NCBI GenBank assembly: GCA_945903545.1
Contig: CAMDOO010000020.1
Span: forward strand, 1 to 43,493
Reading direction: 5' to 3'
Origin: Opitutus sp. GAS368
GTDB taxonomy: Bacteria > Verrucomicrobiota > Verrucomicrobiia > Opitutales > Opitutaceae
Length of the DNA stretch: 43,493 nucleotides
The first letter of the stretch is position 1. The number at the start of each line of letters is the position of its first letter. Below the pieces are notes generated by a model that had not been told where the DNA came from, searched no databases, and was given only the letters and a program-made list of their open reading frames with translations. The position numbers and the translations under genes are program-made. This document shows, one piece after another, positions 2,026 through 19,855 of this stretch.

Positions 2026-3306
2026 CTACTTGGCGTTGCCGAGCGAGGTGTTGCCGTTGACGAGACCGAGCGCCCAGCGGATGCCCTGCAATAAATGCGC
2101 CTGGTAGGCGGCGGAGACGGCGTCGGGATTGAGCTTCGTGTTGCCCTCGGTGGCCGGGATGCCGGGCAGCAGCACATCATCGCGGTGCCCCAGGGACGTA
2201 TAAAACACGCGGCCGCGGCCGTGCATCTTCGTCCAAGCCACCGCGAGGCGCTGGCCTTCATAGTCCACATCGAGCAGCGAGTGCACCTTGGTCCGGTCCA
2301 TTCCGGGGATGCTCACATTGCCGTCCCGCGGGCTCGCGCGATTGAATTGCGCGAACTCGTCGACGACCGCCAGCCCATCGGGCCAGTCCTTGGTCGTCGG
2401 ATGGGTGGCGTCCACCTTGTAGATCTTGCGCGCGGTGGCGCTGCCGCCGGGCGAGCTGGCATAGCGGGTGCCGCCGGAAAGCATGGCCATGTGGGCATCC
2501 GGGGTTTCGTACCCGGTGTTCATGGCGGCGTGGATCGCCACCACGGCATGGCCGTCTGACACCCATTTGAGGAACCCATCGCGGTCGGGGAAAGGCAGGG
2601 CCCCCGTGGAGCTCAGAAAGATGACACCGTCATAGTTCTTCAGCGCGGCGGGGCTAAAGTATTCTTGGAACAGCTTCGCCACCACGGGCGCAGGATCGGG
2701 AGCGGCCGGCGCCGCCGGGGTAGCAGCGCCACGCCCGCCGGCGGGAACGCCACCTCGTCCCCCGGCCGGGCCCTGGGCCGATCCGGCCAAGGCTTGGATC
2801 TGTTCGGGCGAGAGCCGGTGGGCCGAAGCCTGGACCTGCGCCAAGGTATTGGCCCGCGCGAGGGCGAGGTTCAATTCGGCAGCCGCGAGGGCGGAGACCT
2901 TGGCCGGAATCTCCGCCGGTTTGGAAAACGAGGTGGCCGTGAGCTCGGTATGCGCCGCGGTCGCCGCCGCCAGGAGCGGTCCGTTGGCCGCGCTGGCGAT
3001 GAAGAGCGCATCCTGCTGGGTCATGCGCGCCGTCAGGATCTGGCCCGCAAAGCCCGGGATCGTTCCGCGTCCTCCGCCGGGCACGCGGGAGAATGGATAG
3101 TCGGCCGCGTCCGACATGACGGTGACCGTGAACTGGCCGTTAGATTTCGCCGCGAGCTCGCGGAGCAGCTTCTCGCCATTCGGAATCGAGACGTCGCGCG
3201 TGCCGAGCGTCGCGCCAACCACGAGCAGTTTTTTCGGTTCCGCAGCACCCAGGGCCGCGGACAGTGAGAACACGATAGTGCAGGTGGTGAGGGCGAATCG
3301 ATTCAT
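2026..3306 (-). CDS. Secreted ThuA-like protein, long form with inserted helical module, copy 1
   Basis: This 426-residue protein has a signal peptide (residues 1-21, 'SLSAALGAAEPKK') followed by a ThuA-like domain: 'LLVVGATLGTRD' near the start, then 'YDGVIFLSSTG', 'GHAVVAIHAAM' and 'VFYTSLGHRDD'. The domain is split by an insertion at about residues 73-207. The insertion holds Ala-rich helices ('AAAELNLALARANTL'), an LTxxQ-like motif ('RLSPEQIQAL') and Gly-Arg-rich linkers. Related segments occur in the paralogue at 13635 and in both cytochromes at 8887 and 14998. The start at 3306 gives a clean signal peptide and follows CCCCC; the frame itself extends to 3366. It sits between the TonB receptor and the short ThuA gene. 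The substrate is unknown; a periplasmic sugar-processing role is inferred. Confidence 0.88.
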   Translation of the reverse strand: MNRFALTTCTIVFSLSAALGAAEPKKLLVVGATLGTRDVSIPNGEKLLRELAAKSNGQFTVTVMSDAADYPFSRVPGGGRGTIPGFAGQILTARMTQQDALFIASAANGPLLAAATAAHTELTATSFSKPAEIPAKVSALAAAELNLALARANTLAQVQASAHRLSPEQIQALAGSAQGPAGGRGGVPAGGRGAATPAAPAAPDPAPVVAKLFQEYFSPAALKNYDGVIFLSSTGALPFPDRDGFLKWVSDGHAVVAIHAAMNTGYETPDAHMAMLSGGTRYASSPGGSATARKIYKVDATHPTTKDWPDGLAVVDEFAQFNRASPRDGNVSIPGMDRTKVHSLLDVDYEGQRLAVAWTKMHGRGRVFYTSLGHRDDVLLPGIPATEGNTKLNPDAVSAAYQAHLLQGIRWALGLVNGNTSLGNAK

Positions 3307-3349
3307 GGGGGAAAAGAGGGTGACAGTCCGAAAGCGGCAGGAAGGGCAA

Positions 3350-3379
3350 GGCGGCTGGCACCCCATGGCACCAGCCGCC
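3350..3379 (-). terminator. Intercistronic GC-rich hairpin downstream of the TonB receptor
   Basis: A perfect 9-bp stem (GGCGGCTGG / CCAGCCGCC) with a 12-base loop lies between the receptor stop (3409) and the long ThuA start (3306). No T-run follows it on the minus strand, so it is not a classic intrinsic terminator. It could stabilise the receptor mRNA or partly attenuate the distal genes. Confidence 0.4.
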
Positions 3380-3408
3380 GCACCCCGTGGATAACTTTCA
3401 GGCAGGCG

Positions 3409-6400
3409 TTAACGACGGCCGGCGGCACCGCCAAAGCTGTAGGTGGCGGTAAGTCGGGCATTCATGGGTTCGTTGATCGACGAGGGGTTCCCCGCGCCCA
3501 TCAGCACACGATTGGGCTTCGTCAGGTCGCCCTGCGGCTGGCGAGTGGCGGAGCTGAACTGCAGGACGGTCACGCCGATGTTGTTTACCCGCAGGGCCAG
3601 CGCCAAAGTCCGGTTTTCTTTCAGCCGGAAGGTGTAGCTGAAGTTGGCTTGGGTTTTCATAAGCCCCGATTTCCAGAAGATGTCGGTGTTGTTGACCGAC
3701 GGATCGTCGACCGCCACCACCCCGAGAACCGGATCGGTGGCTAGCACCGTGTTGTTGGCCTTGTTGCCGATGTTCCTGACTCCCTGCCACTGCACGCCCG
3801 CGCCGATGCGCAGCCCTTTCAGGAAGGTGGAGGGGACGACGTAATCGGCGAAGAAATTTGCCGTCGGCGAGTTCCGGGTGCGCGTGGCGTTCGTCCCGAG
3901 TTGGTCGAATTGGATCCAGAGGTTATTGTAGGCATTAACCGCGTTGGTGGTGTCCAGACCGATACCCCTGCCCGGCAGGGGCGTCAGCAGGGCGAGGCCC
4001 GGGGCGGCGGCGACGGCCCGGCCGTTGCTGATCGGTTTTTGGCTGGTGTCCAGACTGGCACCCGCGTCCTCCAGCAACGCCTTCAAATCGGCCAGCTTCT
4101 GCGGATCCGCCATGTACCTTTTGGTCGTGGGGTAGAAGGTGGAGTTGTCGGTCGACTGGCTGCTGGCCCCGCCGTTGAGGGTCAGGCGGACACCCTTCAC
4201 CTGGGCGCTCAGCTCAAACTCATAGCCAAAGTTGCCCCGCGTGTTGAAATCCCCGTTGGGATTCAGGGGGTCAATTCCGAGTTGATTGATGGCGGTGGAT
4301 GCACCGCTCGTAAGTTCGACATCACTCCAGCGGTTGGCGTTGATCAGGGTGTTGATATTGGTGATCACGCCGTTGCCCGCAGGGTTATTGTAACGGGTGG
4401 TATTAAAATAGTTGTACCGGCCCGTGAGCTTGCCGTTCAGGAAACTGAACTTGAAACCGAAATCGGTGCCCTTCGCCAGGATGTCCTTCTGCTGTTGCCC
4501 GTACAGGTCGATGTTGCCCTGCGTGCCTGTTCCGCTCGTAAACGGAGTGGGCAGGATCTGGTCGCTCTTGTTGATATAGGGGGCAAACCAGGGCAGCACG
4601 TTGAGCGTCAGGCCGTAGGTCTTGGTGCTGCCGTACGACGCCACTTTGGGATAACTGTAATCGTTCCTGAACTGATCGGTGGCGTAACGCGGATCGATGA
4701 CCGTGAAGATGCCGTTCAGATTACCGCCGTCCGCGCCGCCGGGCAACGTGGTCGTTGGGCGCGTGATGGCCTGCCGCGCGCTGCCCACTTGGTTGCCGTT
4801 GGTGTCGCGCGGTTTGTAGGTCAGCGCATTGTACTGCAGGATGGTGCCCGGGAAGTTGGGCTTGTAGTAGCGGGTTTGCCCGTCCCAGAGGCCGGCAGGG
4901 ACGACGAAACCGCCCGGCCGGGTGATCGGGTCGATCGTCGGATAATAGGCGGTGGCCTGCCCCTGCTTCATAATGGTGCTATTGTAGTCCCGACGGTAGC
5001 CGCCCAGGAACACGACCTTGTCATCCCACCATTTGGCGGTCGTCTGGAGAGCGAGATTCGCCGTATGGAAAGTCTGGTAGGTCGAGGGAGCCGACCGGGT
5101 GCTTTGCGGGTGGTTTACCCATTCCGTCGTAACCTTGGTGGTCGTCACCGCTGGCGTAAACGCATTGGCATCCCCCTCGGTCCCGGTCCCGGTCCAATTT
5201 GAATTGATCAGATTGAATTCCCGGGGGGTTTTGGGTTCCCCGATGCCCTTGTCGGAGGACTGGTAGATGATCATGTTAACCCTTCCGCGGTCCGACCAAG
5301 TCCTTGGATCTTTGAGGAGAGTGGACAGTCTGGGGTCATTGGGGGCGCTGGTCATGGCGAGCTCCATGAAGTAGTAATCCGAGGTGCGCGTGTTAATGTT
5401 CCCGTTCAAATTGAACACGTAATTCCCCCACCGGCCGGCGTTCAGCGTGTTTTGGACATTCGCGCGGAGGGCCTGATCCACGGTGATCGAAAACTGGTCG
5501 GAGACACCGTCGATCGGGTCGAAAGAAAACATTTCCAGGAAATGGGGATTGGGACTGCCGTCCGGCAACAGTTGATTGAGATCCAAGTTTATCGAATTGA
5601 GGGCCCGATCCATCGTCCGGCCATTCATCTGGGTGCGGTTCCAGTCGCCGCCCAAGCCGACGGCCCAGTTGTTCCCGAGGCGTTGCGAAAAGGAGAATTG
5701 CAGGTCGCGCGTCCGGGTGTCGTTGCCCGGCCCTTCCCAAGAGAGGTTTTCCCGGACCCCCAGGGTCTTGGCTTTGGAATTGGCCACCACGCGGGCGTAC
5801 ATGTCCAAGGGCAGGCCTTCCAGATTCAGCCAGGAACGGTTCGAGACGCCGAAGCCGACATCGGTCTGGACGTTGACCCCGTTGCTGACGGTATTCGGCC
5901 GCGTACCCCGCACGAAGAAGGCCCCGTTCGGCGCCGTCGCCGTCCACAACGGAACGCGACTGGTCGAGTCCGCCCGGCGGGCCATGAGCATCCCCCGCAT
6001 GTTGATGATGGTGGGACTCCCCGCTTCCCAGAAGTAATTGTCGGCCGCGTTTCCATTGGCTCGCTGGACGCCGTTGGGTTCACCACCCCAGGAGATCGGC
6101 GTGCTGGTCCCGATGATCGACCCGTACGCCTTGCTCAGGCTCGCGGTGTTATTGTTGACGGTATTGGGCATCATCGTCGTATCGATGAGGCCGCGCGCGA
6201 CGGTGCGGCCATCCCAGCCGGAGAAATTTTCGTTCGGGGTGTTGACGGGGTGAGTGTTCGTCTTGTCGTAGGACACCTCGATCGAGAGATCAGCCGTGTT
6301 GGAGAGCCGGAAGGACGTGGTGATGGAGAGTCCGCGCTTCTGGGTTTCAGCATGGTCGATGAATCCGTGGCTGTCCGAATCGACGGCATTGACCCGCACT

Positions 6401-7134
6401 CCGATGCGATCGGAAAGCGGCCGGTTGTGATCGAGGGTGAACCTCCGGTAGTTGAAGGCCCCGACTTCAGCCGTGAGGGTGGTCCGGGTCGCATCAAAGC
6501 GGGCCTTCTTGGTCTGGGTGCTCGATACTCCAGTCAAACCGGCAGAGGCCGCGGAGGCTTGGAACTGACCGGTGGACTGAGCTCCACCAAAAAGGATGCC
6601 ATTGGGGCCCTGGCCGAAGTCGAAGGTCTCGACCGCGTAGGAATCCTGATTACCCGCGGCGACATTCTGGTAGAAGTTGCGCTGCACTCCACTCGAGGAG
6701 CCGGAGATGCTGGCGGTGTTCGATGAGTTGATCGAAGTCAGGCCGCGCACCTGAAACCGGACATTCTGGCCGTCGATATTGCCGAGATTGTTGCCACTAT
6801 CGAACGACTGTCCCGGCGCCCAGGAAGCCGCCTCGTTGATGTCGGTGATGCCGAGGGCGTCGATAAATGCGCGGTTGATGACGGAATATTGGGCCGGCAC
6901 ATCCTTGAGCTCAAGCACCAGGCGGCCCCCGGTGCCGATCGATTGGGTAGTGAAGCTGTCGTCCGTTTGCTCACTGACCTCAAACGGATTCAGCCGGACA
7001 ACTTCGGCGGCAGCCGGTGCGGCAGCCGCGGTCGAAGGCGACGGGGCGACTTGGGCGGAGGAGATGACGGGGACGGCGAGCAGGGCGACCAACGCCCCGA
7101 CCAGCGGGCGTGGGATATTCTTGGGGGGATTCAT
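3409..7134 (-). CDS. TonB-dependent outer-membrane receptor (Opitutaceae type)
   Basis: This 1241-residue outer-membrane receptor has a signal peptide (about residues 1-27), an Ala/Pro linker, then 'VVRLNPFEVSEQTDDSF', the segment that in Opitutaceae receptors stands at the TonB-box position. A plug domain follows (about 70-190, with 'FQVRGLTS' and 'GPNGILFGG'), then a long beta-barrel rich in alternating aromatic strands. The barrel's last strand is 'RLTATYSFGG', after which a short tail (AAGRR) follows instead of the usual terminal Phe. Such receptors import oligosaccharides or other large ligands using TonB energy. It is the first gene of the minus arm, so it probably supplies the substrate of the locus. 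No TonB/ExbBD or SusD-like partner is in the window, which is usual for this group. The 5' gap (7135-7708) is long and holds the promoter and operator candidates. The ligand cannot be told from sequence. Confidence 0.95.
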   Translation of the reverse strand: MNPPKNIPRPLVGALVALLAVPVISSAQVAPSPSTAAAAPAAAEVVRLNPFEVSEQTDDSFTTQSIGTGGRLVLELKDVPAQYSVINRAFIDALGITDINEAASWAPGQSFDSGNNLGNIDGQNVRFQVRGLTSINSSNTASISGSSSGVQRNFYQNVAAGNQDSYAVETFDFGQGPNGILFGGAQSTGQFQASAASAGLTGVSSTQTKKARFDATRTTLTAEVGAFNYRRFTLDHNRPLSDRIGVRVNAVDSDSHGFIDHAETQKRGLSITTSFRLSNTADLSIEVSYDKTNTHPVNTPNENFSGWDGRTVARGLIDTTMMPNTVNNNTASLSKAYGSIIGTSTPISWGGEPNGVQRANGNAADNYFWEAGSPTIINMRGMLMARRADSTSRVPLWTATAPNGAFFVRGTRPNTVSNGVNVQTDVGFGVSNRSWLNLEGLPLDMYARVVANSKAKTLGVRENLSWEGPGNDTRTRDLQFSFSQRLGNNWAVGLGGDWNRTQMNGRTMDRALNSINLDLNQLLPDGSPNPHFLEMFSFDPIDGVSDQFSITVDQALRANVQNTLNAGRWGNYVFNLNGNINTRTSDYYFMELAMTSAPNDPRLSTLLKDPRTWSDRGRVNMIIYQSSDKGIGEPKTPREFNLINSNWTGTGTEGDANAFTPAVTTTKVTTEWVNHPQSTRSAPSTYQTFHTANLALQTTAKWWDDKVVFLGGYRRDYNSTIMKQGQATAYYPTIDPITRPGGFVVPAGLWDGQTRYYKPNFPGTILQYNALTYKPRDTNGNQVGSARQAITRPTTTLPGGADGGNLNGIFTVIDPRYATDQFRNDYSYPKVASYGSTKTYGLTLNVLPWFAPYINKSDQILPTPFTSGTGTQGNIDLYGQQQKDILAKGTDFGFKFSFLNGKLTGRYNYFNTTRYNNPAGNGVITNINTLINANRWSDVELTSGASTAINQLGIDPLNPNGDFNTRGNFGYEFELSAQVKGVRLTLNGGASSQSTDNSTFYPTTKRYMADPQKLADLKALLEDAGASLDTSQKPISNGRAVAAAPGLALLTPLPGRGIGLDTTNAVNAYNNLWIQFDQLGTNATRTRNSPTANFFADYVVPSTFLKGLRIGAGVQWQGVRNIGNKANNTVLATDPVLGVVAVDDPSVNNTDIFWKSGLMKTQANFSYTFRLKENRTLALALRVNNIGVTVLQFSSATRQPQGDLTKPNRVLMGAGNPSSINEPMNARLTATYSFGGAAGRR

Positions 7135-7472
7135 GTTTGCGATGTTGGGTTGTCATCGCCCGAAATGGCGGGCGGCTTCGTTGCAGTTTCTTTCGGCTTG
7201 GTTTCTCGGGCGCTGAGCTTGGAAATTGCCAAGGCTTCGCCCTGCTTGTTCTGTCCGGTCAGACGGGATCGACCGTTCAATGGCGGCGGACCCGGAAAAG
7301 ATCTTCAAATCCTGCGGGTAGAGCTCATAACTATAAAGATTCGATTATGGTGGGCCCGCGGCGGAGAGTCTGAGCACATGCAGCAATAACATGTACCCAT
7401 TGCATAACTCGGCGCGCGGAACTTGGGGTTGGGGTTGAAAAGGCCGCGAATGAGCAAGGGGATCGCCGCCTG

Positions 7473-7478
7473 TCTATA
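7473..7478 (-). promoter_or_regulatory. Candidate -10 box for the TonB receptor arm
   Basis: On the minus strand TATAGA follows TGTG, with no good -35 hexamer at the right distance. The upstream operator candidate (7506-7528) ends about 28 bases before it, so it would cover the -35 region near position -40. That is the geometry expected of an AraC-activated promoter. It would give a leader of about 330 bases before the ATG at 7134. I saw no gene or convincing riboswitch in that leader. Confidence 0.3.
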
Positions 7479-7505
7479 CACAGAGTAGCAAATCACTACC
7501 GCTCC

Positions 7506-7528
7506 GTATTGCAGAATTCGCGCAATTC
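7506..7528 (-). promoter_or_regulatory. Candidate AraC operator upstream of the TonB receptor arm
   Basis: The 15-base sequence GTATTGCAGAATTCG at 7506-7520 recurs exactly, as its reverse complement, at 8719-8733 upstream of the opposite arm. Read toward the receptor gene, two adjacent half-sites GAATTGCGC and GAATTCTGC stand at 9-bp spacing. This fits a direct-repeat AraC-family site next to the regulator gene. Confidence 0.5.
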
Positions 7529-7708
7529 TTATTTGCGACGGCGCATCCCGGAAATCCTATCAATCGTCGCGACCTTCCATGCAGTCGCGGGCCCACTCCC
7601 CGGGAAAAATCTCTTTGGCGCAAAGAGCGGGAGAATCACCCCATCCGCAAGCACATGGACACCGCGCCCCGCTCCGCTTCCAGCCTCGGGGACCTGGCGA
7701 AGAGCTTC

Positions 7709-8503
7709 TCAGCTCCGCTGGGGACGCGCCCCACCCGTGCCCTTGTCCGTGAAGCGCAGCCGGTAGGCACCCGGAGCCTCGCCCATCAGGCGGTGGAACT
7801 CGTTCGTGAAATGGCTCTGGTCCGCAAAACCGAAGTCCATCGCGATCTCGGACAGCCGCTTGTGCGAGAAGACGAGGGGCTGACAGCTCAGCCGCACCCG
7901 GATGTTACGGATGTAATTGTGCGGCGTGATCCCGTAGGACTCCGTGAACTTTCGCTCGAAATCGCTCGTGGACATGTGGCACGCCTTGGCGAGCTCCGCA
8001 TTATTCAGCGGCTCGGCGTAACGCTGCATGATCAGGCCGACGGCGGCACTCACCGGCGAAGCCTCAAGGGCCTCCGGCAACTTGCCCGGGAGGGGCATGC
8101 AGGTGCCGGCGGTCCCCACGATCTCCCCCTTGCGGTCGCGCAGGGGAATCTTGGTGGTCACGAACCAGCGGGCGGTGTGGTCAAAGCGCCCGATGAGCTC
8201 GATGCGCGAGATAATGCGTTCCCCCCGCAGGACACGCTCGTCGTCCAGGCGGTACTGGACCACGAGCATGGGATAGAAGAGTTCGTTGTCCGTGCACCCG
8301 ATGATTTCCTCCCGCGACTGACTCTGGCCCAGCGTCACGAGCCAGGGAACATTGACCCAGGTGAAGCGCCCGGCCCGGTCCTTCATCCAGAACGCCACCT
8401 CCGCCACGTGGTCCAGCACCTCGAGCACCTCGGGCACGGCCATCCCGATCGACTTCATGCTGTCCAGGAGCTGCGCGGTGTTCGGTGGGCGGTTTTTCTT
8501 CAT
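7709..8503 (-). CDS. PAS-domain AraC-family transcriptional regulator
   Basis: This 264-residue regulator has an N-terminal PAS domain (about residues 25-130: 'VAFWMKDRAGRFTWVN', 'IGCTDNELF', 'RDRKGEIVGTAGTC') and a C-terminal AraC-type double helix-turn-helix (about 150-255: 'LNNAELAKACHMSTSDFERK', 'RLSEIAMDFGFADQSHF', 'GEAPGAYR'). It has no signal or membrane segment, so it is cytoplasmic. The PAS domain presumably senses a small molecule. It sits at the centre of the locus between the two divergent arms. A shared 15-bp sequence on both sides makes it the likely activator of both. The start at 8503 is preceded by CCCC. The ligand is unknown. Confidence 0.92.
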   Translation of the reverse strand: MKKNRPPNTAQLLDSMKSIGMAVPEVLEVLDHVAEVAFWMKDRAGRFTWVNVPWLVTLGQSQSREEIIGCTDNELFYPMLVVQYRLDDERVLRGERIISRIELIGRFDHTARWFVTTKIPLRDRKGEIVGTAGTCMPLPGKLPEALEASPVSAAVGLIMQRYAEPLNNAELAKACHMSTSDFERKFTESYGITPHNYIRNIRVRLSCQPLVFSHKRLSEIAMDFGFADQSHFTNEFHRLMGEAPGAYRLRFTDKGTGGARPQRS

Positions 8504-8710
8504 GGGGTAATGGCTCTATCGCACCGTCCGCACTCGCGACCAAGGCAGAAAGGGGCGGGCCGCCATGCCCCCAAGGGACACGAAGGCATGGGGGCAAAGG
8601 GCGCAGACAGCGACCCTAGCAGTTGCCCGCGTACTCTTATTGCATGATTCCGCCAAAAAATTCGCATCGTCTCCTCGTCCGGACTGGTAGAATTCCGCCA
8701 TTTCCTAAAA

Positions 8711-8733
8711 GAATGACCCGAATTCTGCAATAC
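8711..8733 (+). promoter_or_regulatory. Candidate AraC operator upstream of the cytochrome/ThuA arm
   Basis: CGAATTCTGCAATAC (8719-8733) is the exact reverse complement of the site at 7506-7520, so both copies face their downstream genes in the same direction. GAATGACCC precedes it at 9-bp spacing. Two further related words, ATTCCGCCA, occur at 8647-8655 and 8692-8700. The rest of the 8504-8886 gap shows no gene and no good sigma-70 pair. Confidence 0.5.
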
Positions 8734-8886
8734 TCGGTCCCGGTGAGCTGCTAGTCTCGAATCCCCTGCTCCGTGATACCCGACCGTGGGCTCACCGCTG
8801 CTCCAGAAACCCCAAGCCAGCCCACCCGCGACCACCGCAGAGCCGGACGCGTATTTTTTCGATTTCTCCCGATCCACTTCCTCAAC

Positions 8887-11800
8887 ATGGCCACCCTCAC
8901 CCGCCATCTTTTCCTCTCCTGCGCCGGTTTCGCCGGACTGATTCTTCCCCTCGCCGTCTCCGGACAACTGGCGGTGCCGCCCTACGTGCCGCCGCCGGCG
9001 GGTTATGTCGGAAACGGTGGCAACAATGGCAATCCCGGCACCCCGAATCCCCCGCAGACCCGCCCGGAGGACTTCGCCCGGCTCGGAGCGGTCAACGCCG
9101 AGCAGGCCGCCGCCGCGCTGGCCGCCATTACGGTGCCCGAGGAATTCGAGGTGAAGGTCTTCGCCACGCCGCCGGTCGTCAATTATCCCGTCGCCGTGGG
9201 CGCCGCCCCCGACGGGACGCTCTACGTGGCCGTGGACGGCAACGGCTCGCTGAGCGCGATGGAGCACATGGGCCGCATCCTGCGCGTGCGCGACACCAAT
9301 GGCGATGGCGTCGCCGACGAGGTGAAGAACTTCGTGCCCGACATCAACTCGCCCCGCGGCGTCCTCTGGAACCACGACCACCTGATCGTCCTCGCGCCCC
9401 CGAATGTCACCGCCTTCTACGATCGTGACGGCGACGGCGTGGCCGAATCCTCGAGGATCCTTGTCACGGGCGTCGGCTTCACCCTGAAGGAAGTCCATGT
9501 CGACCACGGCCAGAACGGCATCGAGGCCGGCATCGACGGCTGGATCTATTTTGCCTGCGGCGACCAAGGCATGCTCGACGCCATCGGGTCCGATGGCCGC
9601 CGCCTCCAGCTCCACGGCGGCGGGGTCGTCCGTTTCCGCCCCGACGGCAGCGGCCTTGAGCTCTGGGCCAATCGCACCCGCAACATCGTTGGCGTGGCCG
9701 TCGGACCGCAGCTCGACGCGTTTGCCCGCGACAACACCAACGATGGCGGCGGTTGGGACGTCCGCTTCCACTATTTCAGCGGCATGACCGACCATGGCTA
9801 TCCGCAGCTCTTCCTCAATTTCCCGGACGAGATCATCAAGCCCATCGACGAGTTCATCGGCGGCTCCGGCGTCGGTGCCACTTGGGTCGACGAGCCTGGC
9901 ATCCCCGCGAAATACAACAACGCCCCCTACACCGCGGACTGGGGCCGCGCCAATGTCTACCGGCATGCGATCACTCCGGACGGCGCGACCTTCAAGGTGA
10001 CCAATGATCCCCTGTTCTCCGTCGTTAAGCCCATGGATCTCGACGGCGATGCGAACAGCAACCTCTACCTCTCCACCTGGGGCCCGGCGCAGTTCAACTG
10101 GATCGGGCCGATGAGCGGCATGGTCTACCGGATTTCACCCAAGGGCTACAAGGCGCCCCCGCTGCCCAATTACGAAACCCTGACCGCCGCCGAGCTGGTC
10201 CAGGAACTGCAGGGCCCGAGCGCGCACCGCCGGCTCGAAGCGCAGCGCGCCCTCCTCCGCCGGCCTGCGGCGCAGGCCGCGGCCGCCCCTCTGCTCGAGG
10301 CGCTCATGGCGGACAAGACCAAGGACACCAGCCTGCGTGTCGCCGGCATCTTCACCTACCGCCAGATGCGCGGCGCCGCCTCGACGCCCGCCCTCAGCCG
10401 ACTGATCGCCGATCCCACCATCGTCGCCTGGGCGCTGCGCGCCCTCGGCGATGACCGGGCCCAGGCCAAGGGCATTCCCGTCGAACTCGTGCAGAGCGCC
10501 CTGAAGTCGAATGATCCCCGCGTCCGCAAGGAGGCGATCATCACCCTCACCCGCGCGGAATCCGCCCAATCGATCCCCGCGATCGCCCCGCTGATGGCCG
10601 ATGCCGATCCGATCGTGTGGCATACCGCGGTCGAGTCGCTCAAGACCTTGAAGGCCGTCGATGTCCCTCTGGCGATCCTCGATTCCCCCGCCTCCTCACT
10701 CGAACTGCGCCGCGGCGCCCTGCAGGTCCTCCAGGTCCAGCACGACCCCAAGGTCGTGTCCGCCCTAGGTACCCGCCTCAACCGGGAAACCAATCCGGAC
10801 AACCGGCTCGCCCTGACCAGCGCCTTGAGCCGCCTCGCCAATGTCGAGGCCCCTTGGAATGGCACGTGGTGGACGCCGCGCCCGACCACCGGCGGACCCT
10901 ACTATCAGTCCGCCCCCTGGGCCCAAACGGCCAGCGTGGTCGCCGCCGTCAATTCTCTCGTCGAAAAGGCCAGCCCCGAGGAAACCGTCAAACTCGGCCT
11001 CGTGCTCCAGCGGCAGGGCGTTCCCGCCGGGGCCGCCGCGGCCAAGTTCGTGGCCTTCGCCGACACGGAGCCCAAGCTGCTGCCCGCCATCGCGAGCTAC
11101 TACGCGACGGCAGATTCCGTTCCGGCCAACGCAATCCCGGTGCTGGTCAAGATGGCGAAGGCCACGACCACGACCGCCGCTGATCGCGGACTGGTGCTCA
11201 ACGCGCTCGTCAAGACCGATAGCAGGGACGCGTGGGACGCCGTGATCCCGGCCCTGCAATCCCTGCAGGCCGCCCCGGCGGCCGGCGGCGGTCGCGGTGG
11301 ACGCGGCGGTGCGGCCGCTGCTCCGGTGGTCGCCCCCGGTGCCGCTCTCAACGCCGCCCAGACGATTGTGGCCACGGCCCTGATCGAAACTCCCAGCGCC
11401 GCCCTGCTGCAGAATGTGGCCACCGCCCGCACAGCCGTCCTGGCCGCGGCCCTGACCCTTCCGGCCAATCAAACCGAGATCAACGCCCAGGTGACAGCCT
11501 TGGCCTCCGCGGAACAGACGCTGGCCAACGCCCGGGCGACCGGCTTTGCGACGATCCAGACGTCCGCCGTGAAACTCACCCCGCTCCAAGTCGCAGCCTA
11601 CACCGCCACCCAGGCGGCCGCCACTCCTCCGGCCGCCGCGGCGGGCGGACGAGGCGGTGGCCGGGGCGGCGCCGGTGGCGCCGCGGCCGCAACTCCCGCG
11701 GACATGGCCCGGGCCGCCGTCCTGAACTCCGCCAAGCTTGATGCCAACTTTCAGGTTTTCGTGGACCAAGCCGCCAAGCTGGACGGCGCCGCCTCCCAGA

Positions 11801-12546
11801 TCGCGGACTCGGTGCTGCTGAACCTGGCCTCCCGGAAGGTCGGGGCGGCCGAGCCCACCACCGCCGCTGCCCGCTCACTCGACGCCGGCTGGAGCGATCC
11901 CCGCCGCCGGGTGCAGATCATGATGGCCGCGGTCAGCGCCCGCGACACGAGCCGCGCCCTCCAATTCGCGCAGGCGACCACCGATGCGGACCCAGGCGTC
12001 TCCCAGATTGCCAAGTATGCATTGCAGCAGCTGAACCTGAACGCGGACACGATTCGCGCCGAGGCGATGCAGCCGAAACTCTCGACCATGGACGTGACTG
12101 CCATCCTCGACGCCGTCGTCACGGCCAAGGGCACCGTCGCCCGCGGCCAGCAGATCGCCAACCAGGTGGGCTGCGCTGCCTGCCATGCCTTCACCACCAG
12201 CGAGGTACCCAAGGGCCCGTTCCTCGGCGCCATTGGCGGCGTCCAGCGTCGCCGCGACATCGCCGAGAACATCCTCCTGCCGAACAAAACCATCGCCCAG
12301 GGCTTTGCCACCAACATCATTGAGCTGAAGAACGGCACGTCATTCACCGGCTTCGTGGTCAATGATGCCGCCGACGCGATCACCGTGAGGAATATCGCCG
12401 CCCAACAGGAACGCATCAACCGGGCGGACATCGCCAAGCGCACGTCCATGGAAACGTCCCTCATGCCCGCCGGCCTCGTCAACGACCTCACGATGACCGA
12501 GTTCGCCTGCCTCCTCGATTATCTCGAAAGTCTCTCCGCGCACTAA
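8887..12546 (+). CDS. Periplasmic propeller-HEAT-cytochrome c oxidoreductase, copy 1
   Basis: This 1219-residue protein has a signal peptide (residues 1-26) and then an N-terminal domain of the Pirellula/Verrucomicrobium 'membrane-bound dehydrogenase' type (about 80-425). That domain resembles sorbosone/glucose-dehydrogenase propellers, with Asp-rich loops 'DTNGDGVADE', 'DRDGDGVAE' and 'DLDGDANSN' that may bind calcium. HEAT-like helices follow (about 430-790), then the Gly-Arg-bounded helical module (about 797-937), more helices, and a C-terminal haem-c domain with CAACH (1096-1100). Met1193 in 'SLMPAGL' is the likely second haem ligand. The start at 8887 gives the signal peptide; the frame itself opens at 8773. 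Substrate oxidation by the propeller with electron transfer to the haem is inferred. It is the first gene of the plus arm, with 47 bases to the next. Confidence 0.9.
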   Translation: MATLTRHLFLSCAGFAGLILPLAVSGQLAVPPYVPPPAGYVGNGGNNGNPGTPNPPQTRPEDFARLGAVNAEQAAAALAAITVPEEFEVKVFATPPVVNYPVAVGAAPDGTLYVAVDGNGSLSAMEHMGRILRVRDTNGDGVADEVKNFVPDINSPRGVLWNHDHLIVLAPPNVTAFYDRDGDGVAESSRILVTGVGFTLKEVHVDHGQNGIEAGIDGWIYFACGDQGMLDAIGSDGRRLQLHGGGVVRFRPDGSGLELWANRTRNIVGVAVGPQLDAFARDNTNDGGGWDVRFHYFSGMTDHGYPQLFLNFPDEIIKPIDEFIGGSGVGATWVDEPGIPAKYNNAPYTADWGRANVYRHAITPDGATFKVTNDPLFSVVKPMDLDGDANSNLYLSTWGPAQFNWIGPMSGMVYRISPKGYKAPPLPNYETLTAAELVQELQGPSAHRRLEAQRALLRRPAAQAAAAPLLEALMADKTKDTSLRVAGIFTYRQMRGAASTPALSRLIADPTIVAWALRALGDDRAQAKGIPVELVQSALKSNDPRVRKEAIITLTRAESAQSIPAIAPLMADADPIVWHTAVESLKTLKAVDVPLAILDSPASSLELRRGALQVLQVQHDPKVVSALGTRLNRETNPDNRLALTSALSRLANVEAPWNGTWWTPRPTTGGPYYQSAPWAQTASVVAAVNSLVEKASPEETVKLGLVLQRQGVPAGAAAAKFVAFADTEPKLLPAIASYYATADSVPANAIPVLVKMAKATTTTAADRGLVLNALVKTDSRDAWDAVIPALQSLQAAPAAGGGRGGRGGAAAAPVVAPGAALNAAQTIVATALIETPSAALLQNVATARTAVLAAALTLPANQTEINAQVTALASAEQTLANARATGFATIQTSAVKLTPLQVAAYTATQAAATPPAAAAGGRGGGRGGAGGAAAATPADMARAAVLNSAKLDANFQVFVDQAAKLDGAASQIADSVLLNLASRKVGAAEPTTAAARSLDAGWSDPRRRVQIMMAAVSARDTSRALQFAQATTDADPGVSQIAKYALQQLNLNADTIRAEAMQPKLSTMDVTAILDAVVTAKGTVARGQQIANQVGCAACHAFTTSEVPKGPFLGAIGGVQRRRDIAENILLPNKTIAQGFATNIIELKNGTSFTGFVVNDAADAITVRNIAAQQERINRADIAKRTSMETSLMPAGLVNDLTMTEFACLLDYLESLSAH

Positions 12547-12593
12547 TCCACCGGGAACCCCTCAGCACCCCAAGCTTCATCGCCCTGTTACCC

Positions 12594-13517
12594 ATGAAAA
12601 CAAAACCGTTGTTCGCCTTCGCCCTGCTCGTCGCCGTCTTGTCCGGCGTCTCCGCCCCGGCCTTCGCCGGCGCCGCCCCAGCTCCTGCCCCGCTCCGCAT
12701 CCTCTTTGTCGCGGGCGGTTGCTGTCATGACTACATCAACCAGCCGGCCATCCTGAAGAAGGCCTTGGAGGAGCGGGCGAACGTGAAGATGGACATCTTC
12801 ACCAGCGCGAACGGCACCAGCCTCACGCACGACATCTTCAACACTGCCGACTGGGCTAAAAACTACGATCTCGTGATCCACGACGAGTGCTCCGCCGGCA
12901 TCACGGACATGACGATCATCGGGAACATCCTCAAGCCCCACATCGATGGATTACCCGCGGTTTTCCTCCACTGCGCCATGCACAGCTATCGCACCGAAGG
13001 CTGGAACACCGGGGGTATGACGCCTTGGTTTGAGCTGACCGGCATGCAATCGACCGGCCACGGCGCCCAGCTCCCCATCGCCCTCAACTTCGTCGATCAG
13101 GAAAGTCCCATCACGAAGGGAATGACGAATTGGACCACGATCGGCGAAGAGCTCTACAACAACTACGCCGGTGGCATTCTGCCCACCGCGCATCCCTTGG
13201 TATACGGCAAGCAGGGAGCCGATGAAACCGTCGTCGCCTGGACCAACATCTACAAGCAGAAGACCCGCGTGTTCGGCACCACCATCGGCCACAACAACGC
13301 GACCGTGGAGGATACCCGCATGCTCGACCTCGTGACCCGCGGCGTGCTCTGGGCCGCCAACAAGCTGAACAGCGATTACCTCAAGCCGGCCCCGGCGGCC
13401 GCGGCCCAGAAAATGTCCCTGATGTCGGCCCCGCCCGCGGCCAGTGAAGCCGTCGAGGTCGAGACCCAGGAGTGCGGCTGCAAGGACGCCGACCTCACGC
13501 TCGCGCTCGCCAACTGA
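12594..13517 (+). CDS. Secreted ThuA-like protein, short form, copy 2
   Basis: This 307-residue paralogue of the protein at 1054-1974 has the same signal peptide, 'VAGGCCHDY', 'DLVIHDECSAG' and 'AVFLHCAMHSYRTEG'. A 32-base stretch of the signal-peptide coding DNA (12639-12670) is identical to 1898-1929 in the other copy, although the mature domains have diverged, which suggests recent duplication or gene conversion. The C-terminus again has a cysteine tail, 'ECGCKDADLTLALAN'. The start follows TTACCC without a Shine-Dalgarno. It lies between cytochrome 1 and the long ThuA gene. It is probably periplasmic; the reaction is unknown. Confidence 0.88.
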   Translation: MKTKPLFAFALLVAVLSGVSAPAFAGAAPAPAPLRILFVAGGCCHDYINQPAILKKALEERANVKMDIFTSANGTSLTHDIFNTADWAKNYDLVIHDECSAGITDMTIIGNILKPHIDGLPAVFLHCAMHSYRTEGWNTGGMTPWFELTGMQSTGHGAQLPIALNFVDQESPITKGMTNWTTIGEELYNNYAGGILPTAHPLVYGKQGADETVVAWTNIYKQKTRVFGTTIGHNNATVEDTRMLDLVTRGVLWAANKLNSDYLKPAPAAAAQKMSLMSAPPAASEAVEVETQECGCKDADLTLALAN

Positions 13518-13536
13518 ACCGCTGAAACGACGGGGA

Positions 13537-13605
13537 ACGAGTGACAGGTGACCAGTGCCCGGACTGCCACTTTCACCGCCTCGTCACTCGTCACCTGTCA
13601 CCCGT
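13537..13605. repeat. Intercistronic inverted repeat made of GTCAC-type words
   Basis: The arm at 13537-13552 (ACGAGTGACAGGTGAC) is complementary to 13590-13605 at 15 of 16 positions. The right side also holds direct repeats of CGTCACTCGTCAC running to 13619. It separates the short and long ThuA genes of the plus arm and has no equivalent in the minus arm. It could act in mRNA processing, or it may be an inserted repeat. Confidence 0.5.
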
Positions 13606-13634
13606 CACTCGTCACTCGTACCCCCTCATTCCCC

Positions 13635-14879
13635 ATGAACCGACTTACCCTCTCTGCCAGCATTGCCCTCCTCGGTCTCTCCAGTGCCCTCACCGCCGCC
13701 GAGCCCAAAAAACTTCTCGTCGTCAGTGCCACGGTCGGCGCCCGCCATGCCTCAATCCCCCATGGGGAGAAAATGCTCCGTGAGCTCGCCGCGAAATCCA
13801 ATGGACAGTTCACCGTGACGATGATGTCGGACGCGGCCGACTATCCCTTTTCCCGCGTCCCGGGCGGTGGCCGCGGAGCCATCCCGGGCTTTGCCGGCCA
13901 GATCCCGACAGCGCGCATGGCGCAGCAGGATGCCCTCTACACCGCGAGCACGTCGATTGCTCCGCTCATGGCGGCAGTGACCACGGCCCGCACCGAGCTT
14001 GCCTCCTCCTCGCTCGCCCGACCTGCCGACATTCAAACCAAGGCTGATACCCTGGCCGCCGCCGAGCTCAGTCTCGCGCTCGCGCGGGCCACTGCTCTGG
14101 TCCAGATCCAAGGCTCGGCCAACCGGCTTTCCCCCGATCAGGTTCAAGGCTTGGCCGTGGCGGCGCCGGCAGCCGGCGGGCGCGGTGCGGCCGCTCCGGC
14201 CGCTCCAGACAACAGCCAGACGCTGGCGAAACTGTTCCAAGAACACCTGAGCACCGCCGCCCTCGCCAAATACGACGGCGTCATCCTCCTCAGTTCCACC
14301 GGGGCGCTGCCCTTTCCAGACCGCGAGGCATTCCTGAAATGGGTCTCCGCCGGTCACGCCGTGGTGGGCATCCACGCGGCGATGGACACCAGCTATAATA
14401 CCCCTGACTCCTACATGGACATGCTCTCGGGCGGGTCACGCTATGCCACCTCCATTGGCGGCAACACCACCGCACGCAAGGTCTACAAGGTGGATGCCAC
14501 CCATCCTGCGACGAAGGACTGGCCCGATGGCCTTGCCGTGACGGATGAGTTTTTCCAATTCACCCGCCGGAACCCGGCCGACCCCAGCACCAACCTCCCC
14601 GGCATCGACCGGAGCAAGGTCCACTCCCTACTCGACGCGGACATTGACGGCCAGCGTCAGCCGGTCGCCTGGACCAAGCTGCAGGGCCGCGGCCGCGTGT
14701 TCTACACCTCCCTGGGTCATCGCGACGACGTGCTGCTGGCCGGCACCCCGGCCATGGATGGCAACGCGAAGATCAATTCCGACGAAGTCTCCACCGCTTA
14801 CCAGCGGCACGTCCTCAACGGGATTCTTTGGTCGCTCGGCCTCGCCCAGGGCAACACCTCGACCGGCAACGCCAAGTGA
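13635..14879 (+). CDS. Secreted ThuA-like protein, long form with inserted helical module, copy 2
   Basis: This 414-residue close paralogue of the protein at 2026-3306 has a signal peptide (residues 1-21), 'EPKKLLVVSATVG', 'TVTMMSDAADYPFSRVPGG', then the inserted module (about residues 73-195: 'AAAELSLALARATAL', 'RLSPDQVQGL', 'AAGGRGAAAP'), then the rest of the ThuA domain ('YDGVILLSSTG', 'GHAVVGIHAAMD', 'FYTSLGHRDD'). The start at 13635 follows CCCC; the frame extends upstream into the GTCAC repeat and that part is rejected. The insertion falls between the first beta strands and the strand carrying 'YDGVI', so it would project from the ThuA core. The operon continues 118 bases on with cytochrome 2. 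The substrate is unknown. Confidence 0.88.
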   Translation: MNRLTLSASIALLGLSSALTAAEPKKLLVVSATVGARHASIPHGEKMLRELAAKSNGQFTVTMMSDAADYPFSRVPGGGRGAIPGFAGQIPTARMAQQDALYTASTSIAPLMAAVTTARTELASSSLARPADIQTKADTLAAAELSLALARATALVQIQGSANRLSPDQVQGLAVAAPAAGGRGAAAPAAPDNSQTLAKLFQEHLSTAALAKYDGVILLSSTGALPFPDREAFLKWVSAGHAVVGIHAAMDTSYNTPDSYMDMLSGGSRYATSIGGNTTARKVYKVDATHPATKDWPDGLAVTDEFFQFTRRNPADPSTNLPGIDRSKVHSLLDADIDGQRQPVAWTKLQGRGRVFYTSLGHRDDVLLAGTPAMDGNAKINSDEVSTAYQRHVLNGILWSLGLAQGNTSTGNAK

Positions 14880-14997
14880 CCTGCTAGGGTCCGATCCTTT
14901 CCTTTCCTTCAATCGCGCCCCGGCGCGATCGGTTCCTTTTTCTGCCGGCGTTACGGCCGGCGCTAGCCTGCTCCATTCAGAAGCTCATCCCCACCCC

Positions 14998-17900
14998 ATG
15001 CACTCAAAACGATTCAACCTCGCGGCCGCCACCCTCCTGCTGACCGCCTCCCTGGGCCAGGCCCAAATCACCGTCACGAGCAAGGATGTCATTTACCTCA
15101 ACGGCGCGGCCACGCCGTCGACCGAGGTACCGCTCGGCACCTATGCCTGGACTCGCACGGCTTCCTTTGAAGGCCAGTACGACCAGATTCCAGAGGCCGG
15201 CCCGCAACCCTCCATCGCCAGTTATGCCACCACGCCCGTGATCACGCCGGCGTACGCCGAGATCGCGATGAACGAACTGACGGTCCCGGATGGGTTCGAA
15301 GCCAAACCGTGGGGCACGCCACCCTTGGTGAATCATCCGACTGCGGTCACCGCCGCGCCGGACGGCACGATCTACGTGGCGGTCGACGGCTCCGGCTCCC
15401 TCGGCGCCAACGCCCATCTCGGACGGATTGTCCGGCTCCGGGACACCAACAAGGACGGTGTGGTCGACGAGGCAAAGCCCTTTGTGCCCGACATCGATTC
15501 GCCGCGCGGAGTGATCTGGGATCACGATCATCTGATCGTCATGGCCCCGCCGAATGTGACCGCGTTCTACGACCGGGACGGCGACGGCATCGCGGAGGAA
15601 AAGAAGGTCCTGATCAGCGGTATGGGCTGGCCCCTGACCATGGCGCTCGCCGACCACTCCATCCAGAACATTGAGGTCGGCATCGACGGCTGGATTTACC
15701 TGGCTGTGGGAGATATCGGCATCTTCAAGGCCACGGGGTCCGACGGCCGCACGCTCCAGATGCGCAGTGGCGGCATCGTCCGCTTCCGCTCCGACGGCAG
15801 CGGCATGGAGATTTTCGCCGGCGCCACGCGCAACAACTACGGCGTGGCCATCAGCCCGTTGCTCGACGTCTTTTCCCGCGACAACACCAATGACGGCGGC
15901 GGCTGGGATGTGCGTCTCCACCACTTTACCGGCATGACCGACCACGGTTATCCGTCGCTCTTCGTCAATTTTTCCGACGAAGTGATCGCGCCGCTGGCCC
16001 AATTCGGCGGCGGTTCGGGCGTCGGTGCGATGTGGCTCGACGAGCCGGGCATCCCGGCGAAGTGGAACGGCCTCACCACGGCGGATTACGGCCAACGGGC
16101 GCTTTTCCACCATGCCTTGGTCCCCAAGGGCGCGACCTTCTCGCTGCCGGGCTATTCGGGTGGCACCACCTCGGCCAATCCCCCGCTCCTCACGCCCGGC
16201 CAGGAAGGTCCTCCGGCCGGCAATGAACCGTTCCTCGAGGCGGTCAATCCGATGGACGCGGACGTCGACGCGAACAGCAACATCTACCTGGTGGCCTGGC
16301 GTGGCGGCGGCTTCCGCTGGACCGGACCCATGTTCGGAATGGTCTACAAGGTTTCGCCGAAGAACTTCACCCCGGCGCCACTGCCGGATTTCAACCGGAT
16401 TTCCGCGGCCGCTCTGATCGAGGTGCTGAACGGACCCAGCCACGTGCGTCGTATCGAGGCGCAACGGGCCATCCTCCGGCGCAAGGCCGAGCTCGGCACC
16501 CAGATCGTCCCGATGCTCCAGGCGCTTGCGGCCGACCGTTCCAAGCCCCTCGCCAACCGCGTCGCGGCCCTGTACACCGACAAGCAGCTCCGCGGTGCCC
16601 AGGCGACCGCGCAAATCGCCCAGCTGGCCAGCGACCCGACGATTGCCGCCCTCGCCATCAAGGCGCTCGGCGACGATCTGACCCAAGCCCGCTCGATTCC
16701 GATTCCCGTCGTCACGGCCGCCCTCCGCTCGAGCGATCCGCGCACCCGCAAGGAGGCGCTGATCACCCTCGCGCGCGCCGATTCGCTCGCCTCGGCCCCG
16801 GCCATCACCGCCTTGCTCGCCGATCCGGATCCCGTCGTCGCCCACACCGCCGTGCAGGCCCTGCGCAGCCTCCGGGCCGTCGACGCCTCGCTCGCGGTCG
16901 TCGATTCCACGACCGCCGTGCCTGCGCTCCGCAAGGGCTCGCTGCAGGTTCTCCAATCAATCCATGAAGCCCGCGTGACGAATGCGCTCATCCAGCGACT
17001 GACGAGCGACCAGACGGTCGAGCGCCAGAATGATCTCGTGGGCACGCTCGCCCGCCTCGCCAACACCGAGGCCCAATGGAACGGCAGCTGGTGGAATACG
17101 CGCCCGAGCACGGTCGGACCGTACTATGCGCCCGCTCCCTGGCCCGAGACCGGCAAGATTCTGACCGCCCTGAATACCGTGCTCAATCGCGCCGGCCCCG
17201 AGCAGACCCTCGCGATTGCCCGCCATTACATCAAACAGGGCGTTTCGCCGGGTGCCGCCGTGACCAAGTTCCTCGCATTTGCGGACGCCGAACCGGCGCT
17301 CCTGCCGCAGATCACCTCTTATTTCGCAGCTGCGGATGAAATCCCGGCCAATGCCATCCCAGTCCTGACCAAGGCGGCAGCCAACGTCACCGTCCCGGCG
17401 AATGTCCGCGCCGACGCCGTGGCGGCACTGGCCAAGACCTCGGATCGCGCCAACTGGGCCGCTCTCATACCCGCCGTGGCCACCATCGGCCAGGCCGGAG
17501 CGCCCGCGGGTGGTCGCGGCGCGGCCGCCGCGGCCGCCCCGGCGGGCATTCCCGGCGCGACACCGATTCAGCAATTGCTGGTGACCGCACTCGAAACCGC
17601 GAGCACGGCCCAGCTCCAGGCTCTCACTGCGGCGCGCACCGCACTTACCCAGGCCTCGTTGACAGCCGACCAAGCCACCGTGGCCGCTCGCGCGGCCAGC
17701 GTGGCCCAAGCGGAGGAAGCGCTGGCCCTCGCCCGCTCCGCCGCCTTCGTCAAGATCCAGACTTCTGTGGCCAAGCTAAACCCGGCCCAAGTCGCGGCAC
17801 TCACCGCGCAGTCTGTGGCCGTGCCCGCACCTGCCGTAGCCGCCGGGCGCGGTGGTGGTGGCCGCGGCGGCGCGGCGGGAGTGCCCCCCGCCGAGCAAGC

Positions 17901-18735: not shown

Positions 18736-18826
18736 TCCCTCGCGCCCGCTGGTCCAACCCGGCGGGTTCGTACCTCGCGCGGCCGCGGGTGCTTCCCGCC
18801 GGCCGCCAGTCTTTCCCGTCTTCAAA

Positions 18827-19672: not shown

Positions 19673-19855
19673 GTCCTCCGGGCTCGGAACCTTCGTTCCC
19701 GCGAGTCCCCGGCCTCGCCCGCGATGCGAGACGGCTCGCGGCCAGCCGGGAGCGGGATTTCGCCGTCGGCCGGCGCTGCACCCGGAAATATGGGATCGAA
19801 AACGCCGTTCGGCCCCTCCATTTTTCAACAGGGTCCCACCCCAACCTCCATTATC

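Follow-up and report, generated by a model that had tools for sequence, protein, structure and literature searches.

A Spy/ZraP-like helical module dispersed among exported proteins of Opitutus sp. GAS368 and its congeners

To our knowledge, it is rare in bacteria for one folded module to have entered dozens of unrelated proteins of a single genus; the precedent known best, the palindromic elements of Rickettsia, is regarded as selfish DNA. Another comparison is offered by the dockerins of the cellulosome, whose binding partner is of another kind, the cohesin of a scaffold protein. The Rickettsia palindromic element (RPE) lies in frame in 19 protein reading frames of Rickettsia, is found also in intergenic regions and RNA genes, and forms long stem-loops with terminal inverted repeats (PMC2229807). 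PARCEL elements consist of 25-residue units repeated in tandem, which show dyad symmetry and turn up here and there in distant taxa (PMC2996958). Here we analysed a stretch of 43,493 nucleotides from Opitutus sp. GAS368 (contig CAMDOO010000020.1, positions 1 to 43,493; hereafter the window), in which two long ThuA-domain proteins and two cytochromes carry a common helical segment of about 85 residues, and we followed this Spy/ZraP-like module through the genome and its relatives.

Like a dockerin, the module is small and is appended to many exported enzymes with one metabolic purpose, but it is also inserted inside folds, and no cohesin-like partner is known. Like the RPE (PMC2229807), it is confined to a genus and lies in frame within many proteins that are unrelated to one another; it differs in that no such repeats were found, in the export of its hosts and in its purifying selection. 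With PARCEL it has in common that a protein-coding module is dispersed in genomes and tied to membrane-targeted proteins (PMC2996958), but it is a single 85-residue hairpin in one genus among the genomes searched. The Spy fold group and in-frame dispersed coding elements are already known, the latter from the RPE (PMC2229807) and PARCEL (PMC2996958) descriptions. What appears to be new, as judged from the open-licence literature, is that a Spy-like module which folds and is under selection has been distributed over at least 11 named exported-protein families of one genus. No description of such a module in Verrucomicrobiota was found in that literature, which does not establish its absence from print, and NCBIfam holds no name for it.

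Homologous segments in the window and copies across the genus

The four window segments were scored with a profile of 33 copies from outside the window. We observed 76.6 bits for ThuA 2, 72.0 for cytochrome 2, 68.0 for ThuA 1 and 63.7 for cytochrome 1, while shuffling these stretches 2000 times gave a maximum of 11.4 bits and the next best reading frame of the window reached 5.5 bits. The similarity therefore exceeds mere Ala/Gly composition. Because the 33 training copies were originally found via a profile built on the window segments, this leave-out test has only partial independence; a separate control is the difference between genera in the 57-genome search described below. Pairwise evidence alone was insufficient, since the matches between ThuA and cytochrome segments (best E 4.2e-8 in unmasked BLAST with the four-sequence set) became weak once SEG masking was applied (best E 0.009). 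With the profile evidence, the four segments of the window are judged to be homologous. A sequence-only reading of the window had placed them at these positions and had taken them for one module in two otherwise unrelated families; both statements hold, the second with 64-77 bits for the leave-out profile against at most 11.4 for shuffled sequence.

The window's own genome (G000; C-numbers denote contigs) has 3.08 Mb in 122 contigs and is 98.6% complete. With a single module as query, 36 places were found in it at E <= 10, 33 of them with E < 0.001, and a four-copy profile gave 37 copies on 27 contigs (weakest E 7.2e-7), all in stop-free open frames. A 33-copy profile was used to search 57 genomes, namely the own genome, two congeners, 34 of the same family and 20 of the same order (the alignment of 33 copies omits C72, C32:32454, C42 and C76:2-184). 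The congeners had 26 copies (a 92% complete genome, with one fragment at a contig end) and 24 copies (a 75% complete genome). G024, a genome of another genus of the family, had two copies, both in a single open reading frame (ORF), and the 33 other same-family and 20 same-order genomes had none.

A scan of named genomes with five copies gave two loci, both in the metagenome-assembled genome 'uncultured Opitutae bacterium isolate UppL6_bin-1600', a congener. A scan of 387 genomes of the phylum matched, besides the own genome, a single LTXXQ protein (G340); it scored at most 13 candidates per genome, so single weak copies may escape it. In viruses, a scan with one peptide pattern gave 89 pattern matches and no relative, a search that distant copies could escape, and tblastn with one copy found no match in plasmids. 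With 37, 26 and 24 copies in the congeners and near zero elsewhere, the module represents a genus-limited expansion among the genomes searched and not a local event. It had been proposed earlier that the module spread within the locus. This does not stand: in an 86-copy tree the window ThuA copies join ThuA copies from elsewhere and the window cytochrome copies join cytochrome copies from elsewhere, the two kinds not grouping together, so that the locus holds four of the 37 members of a genome-wide family. The backbone of this tree is poorly resolved, 36 of its 83 inner branches being well supported, and it leaves out C76:2-184, C42, G001:C182 and the G340 protein.

The two-module ORF of G024 (L102, on G024:C193) has 370 residues, with tandem modules at contig positions 2263-2523 and 2695-2961. 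By eye it begins with a signal peptide, and Pfam shows no enzyme domain in it. It may perhaps represent the ancestral state.

Relation to the Spy/CpxP/ZraP/CnrX group

For this comparison, 28 Metal_resist relatives were gathered with Pfam's own model, only eight of them above its cut-off; CnrX and ZraP presumably belong to the same families, PF13801 (Metal_resist) and PF07813 (LTXXQ). When 87 copies (without C76:2-184 and G001:C182, but with both G024 copies) were aligned to the LTxxQ relatives by hhalign, the score was 29.7 over 83 columns (E 1.1e-4 for one comparison, probability 56%). The alignment of 37 copies with 27 relatives (28 with the G340 protein; L112, which has a stop in frame, was left out) scored 28.5, with both LTxxQ words in register over 83 columns. 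With seven of the eight relatives above the Pfam cut-off, the 87 copies scored 27.4 (probability 42%). Reversed controls gave 11.2 and 11.4, and the best of 100 column permutations 13.5. The hhalign probability, in itself not decisive, rose from 46-56% to 76-84% when the G340 protein was included.

The G340 protein is itself an LTXXQ/Metal_resist protein (PF13801 2.7e-14, PF07813 2.5e-10), and the module profile matched it with E 3.9e-5 for one genome, or about 0.015 over 387. When single relatives were searched with the 87-copy profile (hmmsearch), G340 gave E 1.5e-9 and L106 E 2.2e-4, the best reversed control being 0.075. Both LTxxQ-type words are kept, in a loose form, in 24 of the 37 own and 26 of the 50 congener copies; their modal spacing is 75, and it is mostly 72-76 where both are kept. 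Two words are also seen in 16 of the 28 relatives, and in five of these (G340, L104, L105, L106 and L123) they lie 76 apart.

An AlphaFold model from six sequences predicted a pair of long antiparallel helices together with a third, short helix, with a mean predicted local distance difference test score (pLDDT) of 87.8 and a predicted template modelling score of 0.71. The model of full-length ThuA 2 (two sequences) was too poor, with a mean pLDDT of 42.7, and had helices at the same place. In a Foldseek search of the PDB, CnrX, ZraP or CpxP made up eight of the top ten and 20 of the best 50 of 100 matches, some of them entries of one protein. VIA-align placed ZraP (3lay_J) first, with Z 8.3 over 80 residues at 2.4 Å.

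Several observations speak against the relation. The Pfam cut-off was not reached: at E <= 1, PF13801 is matched by four of the 33 copies, 0.0087 being the lowest value, and the stand-alone C35 protein has 20.0 bits where the PF13801 cut-off is 29.2. No PF13801 match at E <= 0.001 was found in the three congeners, and one copy matches DUF2564 better than PF13801 (E 8.7e-4). Singly, 26 of the 28 LTxxQ relatives did not fall below E 0.01 with the module profile, and among the 16 two-word relatives five have a spacing of 45 and others differ again, while that of the module is 75. The Foldseek matches were not significant (best E 0.59); unrelated helical chains reached Z 7.9, so that Z 8.3 is within the chance range for helical bundles. 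The module profile found nothing significant among PDB sequences (best E 0.14, SlyX). Metal ligands are lacking as well, there being no Cys, 0.2% His and 1.3% Met among the module residues. Such ligands are a feature of the metal-sensing branch of the Spy group only. Metal binding by the module is disfavoured by this composition.

Taken together, the profile comparisons and the predicted structure point to the hairpin of about 85 residues being a divergent relative of the Spy/CpxP/ZraP/CnrX group. The likeness lies in export and in an end-to-end profile alignment and, less clearly, in the predicted helical hairpin and in the pair of LTxxQ-type words, which in five relatives are spaced much as in the module (75-76 residues). 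The differences are that the module is below the Pfam cut-offs, has no His/Cys ligands, is very Ala-rich and usually sits in an enzyme, as insert or appendage, instead of standing alone. Since the Pfam cut-offs were not reached and the metal ligands are missing, we describe the module as Spy/ZraP-like without counting it among the members of the group. The likeness to Spy/CpxP (LTxxQ) proteins that had been noticed earlier is supported at the profile level (29.7 over 83 columns, controls at most 13.5), while the part of that comparison that turned on PF13801 stayed below its cut-off. Composition alone accounts neither for the similarity of the window segments to the other copies, which beats the shuffled controls, nor for the relation to LTxxQ proteins, which beats the reversed and column-permuted ones, and the segments are predicted to be ordered, not disordered, given the pLDDT of the hairpin.

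Host proteins, insertion sites and insert-free relatives

Relatives of the window copies were searched and their host domains listed, and the outcome is a genus-limited family with at least 11 Pfam-named host families (names above cut-off in at least one host). In the DUF7133 cytochromes, with propeller, HEAT and haem parts, the module lies between HEAT and haem in C20 (two proteins), C117 and C22, and follows the signal peptide in C32, C13, C7 and C41. The ThuA hosts have it inside the fold in C20 (two proteins), C97 and C33, at the N-terminus in C12 and at the C-terminus in C32. It is inside the exported TIM barrels of AP_endonuc_2 type in C94 (just below the Pfam cut-off) and C2, inside the propeller of a glucose/sorbosone dehydrogenase with cytochrome in C33, and inside a YNCE-like propeller in C9. 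The GDSL hydrolases of C28, C33 and C109 carry it directly after the first block, and in C23 it stands between a GDSL and a LamG-like domain. Alpha/beta hydrolases or esterases have it N-terminally (C13, C28) or inside (C4), and DUF1080 hosts N-terminally (C5, C77); DUF1080 is also found upstream of the GDSL domains of C33 and C109. Further host families are SMP-30 (C33), the FGE-sulfatase type (C74) and DUF6797 (C6), and two hosts (C76, C42) have no Pfam name. Four proteins (C35, C10, C72 and C18) are stand-alone, with a signal peptide, the module, a tail and little else, and such exported proteins are present in all three congeners.

By eye and with Pfam ranges, the 37 copies were classed as 13 N-terminal, two C-terminal, five interdomain, 12 inside a fold, four stand-alone and one severed by a contig end (C76:2-184). 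Gly-Arg linker words flank 32 of the 37 own and 42 of the 50 congener copies on one side or both, at a distance of up to 45 residues. Signal peptides were found in 34 of the 37 own hosts and 43 of the 45 congener hosts with intact N-termini by a lenient heuristic whose false-positive rate is uncalibrated. The three own hosts it missed have signal peptides by eye (C117, C42) or a twin-arginine translocation (Tat) match just under the cut-off (C94). By heuristic, eye or Pfam, the hosts are predicted to be exported across the inner membrane.

The small proteins of C10, C18 and C72 (L060, L034 and L033) have 'LELTxITRAEE'-like or 'MEVTEITR' words before the module, and counterparts in congeners (L101, L081, L085, L096, L082). 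They are candidate adaptor or scaffold proteins. At another locus, L045 (G000:C33:12000-25000), a module-bearing ThuA protein, sugar dehydrogenase and SMP-30 protein stand beside an insert-free ThuA protein, which parallels the window.

In ThuA proteins the insertion site lies after the end of the 'DYP' strand and before the helix leading to 'YDGV/YDAI', where the G000:C9 paralog and the G002 and G024 homologs have a short loop. In the sugar dehydrogenase the module occupies the propeller hairpin loop after 'NGWIYLAYS', which is a short turn in G009, G006 and G007. Comparison with these insert-free relatives indicates precise insertion in both families. A pectinase-like protein of G001 (by eye) has the module where its homologs in G039, G006, G015, G008 and G005 match unbroken across the junction. 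The C13 esterase has an N-terminal module. In its G001 ortholog, which is 85% identical, a short run of Ala and Gly takes that place, so that the species differ in whether the module is present; no sharp junction is seen, and either gain in one species or loss in the other may explain the difference.

Module carriers in G000, among ORFs above the Pfam cut-off, are six of 11 ThuA, four of 10 DUF1080 and eight of 18 DUF7133 proteins (matched by hand to the copy list, with the rows of one ORF counted once); two further DUF7133 rows below the cut-off have no module. G002 has DUF1080-like carriers (two at L089, and L092, L097, L098 and L099) with no close counterpart (27-44% identity) among the module-bearing G000 proteins, to which the comparison was confined; in L098 the module is inside the DUF1080-like domain. 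These six are possibly lineage-specific gains.

Coordinates in the window are collected in Table 1. The first ThuA gene is on the minus strand. The cytochrome starts are the most likely ones, as judged from the residue numbers given earlier and the signal peptides. The module of ThuA 1 with its linkers is missing from the G000:C9 paralog and from both insert-free ThuA proteins of the window. In ThuA 2 the best Pfam ThuA stretch starts at profile position 40, downstream of the insert, and in both cytochromes matches to HEAT and CxxCH domains flank the module.

Table 1. Module copies and insert-free ThuA proteins of the window
Feature	Coordinates	Strand	Remarks
ThuA 1, module core	2785..3045	-	gene 2026-3306; inside ThuA domain; profile E 3.0e-33 (member of the profile's own training set)
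ThuA 1, module with Gly-Arg/Ala-Pro linkers	2686..3090	-	residues 73-207; from sequence
ThuA 2, module core	13896..14156	+	gene 13635-14879; inside ThuA domain; profile match
ThuA 2, module with linkers	13851..14219	+	residues 73-195; from sequence
Cytochrome 1, module core	11338..11604	+	gene about 8887-12546; between HEAT repeats and haem domain
Cytochrome 1, module with GGRG-rich linkers	11263..11688	+	from sequence
Cytochrome 2, module core	17554..17805	+	gene about 14998-18735; between HEAT repeats and haem domain
Cytochrome 2, module with GGRG-rich linkers	17488..17877	+	from sequence
Insert-free ThuA protein between carriers	12594..13517	+	Pfam ThuA 1-209 unbroken; in-locus negative control
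Insert-free ThuA protein	1054..1974	-	Pfam ThuA 1-209 unbroken; in-locus negative control

Among the neighbouring genes, three TIM-barrel isomerases (by eye; 62-1015, 18668-19672 and 19724-20704) have no export signal and no module. Between the ThuA and cytochrome genes lie a large TonB-dependent receptor-like protein (3409-7134, minus strand) and a PAS/AraC-like regulator (7709-8503, minus strand), both by eye.

Age, selection and a possible role of the module

Paralogous copies have a median residue identity of 36%, and their fourfold-site identity of 0.446 is at the level expected from base composition (0.39-0.45), i.e. saturated. Since the fourfold sites are saturated and the protein is conserved, the copies appear to be old, with constraint on the protein keeping them alike. 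In the 86-copy tree orthologous copies mostly group by host, which suggests that most of the insertions are older than the divergence of the three species. For 29 hand-picked ortholog pairs, mean identity was 70% in modules and 83% in hosts, the module being lower in 27. In 16 of these pairs the median ratio of nonsynonymous to synonymous substitution rates (dN/dS) was 0.25 for modules (0.12-0.37) and 0.16 for hosts (0.06-0.24). Positions A35, A60, L64, A65, R68 and Q76 are nearly or fully invariant in 33 copies. These patterns argue that the module is maintained by selection on the protein. That it is Spy-group-like, selected and expanded in the genus we consider likely.

The modules of C5 (L053, 45027-45266) and C76 (L054, 2494-2733) share 83 base pairs at 83% DNA identity, the strongest among modules of unrelated hosts, possibly through local gene conversion.

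How might such a module be used? We propose that, when the genus was young, a hairpin of about 85 residues related to the Spy group was copied in frame into some 30 exported proteins, mostly with Gly-Arg/Ala-Pro linkers, at N- and C-termini, domain junctions and surface loops. Selection on the protein would then keep it. The hairpins may associate homotypically, and with the stand-alone module proteins, and this would draw periplasmic sugar-oxidation enzymes and cytochromes into shared assemblies. Spy, CpxP and CnrX are dimers, and many hosts fall in what we take to be a periplasmic sugar-oxidation or 3-keto-sugar toolkit. Because hairpins of this fold group assemble, many hosts seem to share that toolkit and stand-alone modules exist, homotypic assembly of the hosts is our first choice of mechanism, a tentative one with somewhat less than an even chance. 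ZraP forms a decamer, according to the title of its entry (3lay).

The whole explanation, a Spy-like module that is dispersed, selected and used for homotypic co-assembly, is the best we can offer but stays somewhat below an even chance, self-association, co-assembly and any catalytic gain being its putative parts. A bolder form, in which the Spy/ZraP-derived self-associating hairpin in some 30 exported enzymes and cytochromes, along with its stand-alone copies, acts as a scaffold-free 'velcro' and builds a cellulosome-like periplasmic sugar-oxidation assembly joined by this one homotypic module, is unlikely, if not strongly so. Two sets of data count against co-assembly. Five of 11 ThuA, six of 10 DUF1080 and 10 of 18 DUF7133 ORFs have no module, so that it is not obligatory for these enzymes, and the faster divergence of the module than of its hosts suits a loose spacer as well as a docking surface.

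Another explanation is that the hairpin is a cis-acting chaperone or solubility element, which would shield or guide the folding of its carrier or of other periplasmic proteins but would not assemble different enzymes. Spy and CpxP are described as periplasmic chaperones in PMC6737893, which also names ZraP as one in a reference title. The relation of the module to this group, the export of the hosts and the existence of stand-alone copies all suit a chaperone. It would leave unexplained why about half of the same-family paralogs do without the module, and also the metabolic toolkit that many hosts presumably share, and we consider it rather improbable. Slightly more doubtful still is a passive spacer or envelope tether, where the hairpin would lengthen loops or bind a common envelope component and so serve location with no mutual docking. 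The occupation of N-terminal, interdomain, loop and C-terminal positions alike and the fast evolution of the module fit it, and a dN/dS of 0.25 is compatible with structural constraint only; the invariant positions and the narrow spacing of the two words exceed what a mere spacer needs.

That the module is a DNA element which spreads in frame selfishly or neutrally, in the way proposed for the RPE, is very improbable. The in-frame dispersal into unrelated proteins and the genus-limited amplification do resemble the RPE (PMC2229807). However, no copy was found outside open frames by the translated profile search, which degraded copies could escape, and the hosts are exported. Flanking repeats, compared for 35 of the 37 copies, were on average not above the control: inverted arms had a mean of 8.03 (maximum 12) for the same copy and 8.32 (maximum 15) for different copies, and direct repeats 8.66 (maximum 25) and 8.70 (maximum 20). 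The synonymous saturation with a conserved protein, the dN/dS value and this want of excess terminal repeats together disfavour such an element. Lastly, a composition artefact, i.e. unrelated Ala-rich helices that are merely alike, has next to no chance: although the module is 30% Ala and most pairwise matches were lost under SEG masking, it is rejected by the leave-out profile with its shuffles and by the genus-limited distribution (33 of 34 other same-family genomes had no match), and orthologous copies mostly cluster in the tree.

The contrast with the Rickettsia elements is that selection appears to keep the Spy-like module. It has been inserted even into internal loops of TIM-barrel, propeller, GDSL and ThuA domains, and the orthologs and paralogs with and without it make up a natural experiment in domain insertion. 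The Spy fold would here be used beyond stress response and metal sensing and, if the hosts do assemble through their hairpins, the genus may have a new way to organise periplasmic metabolism.

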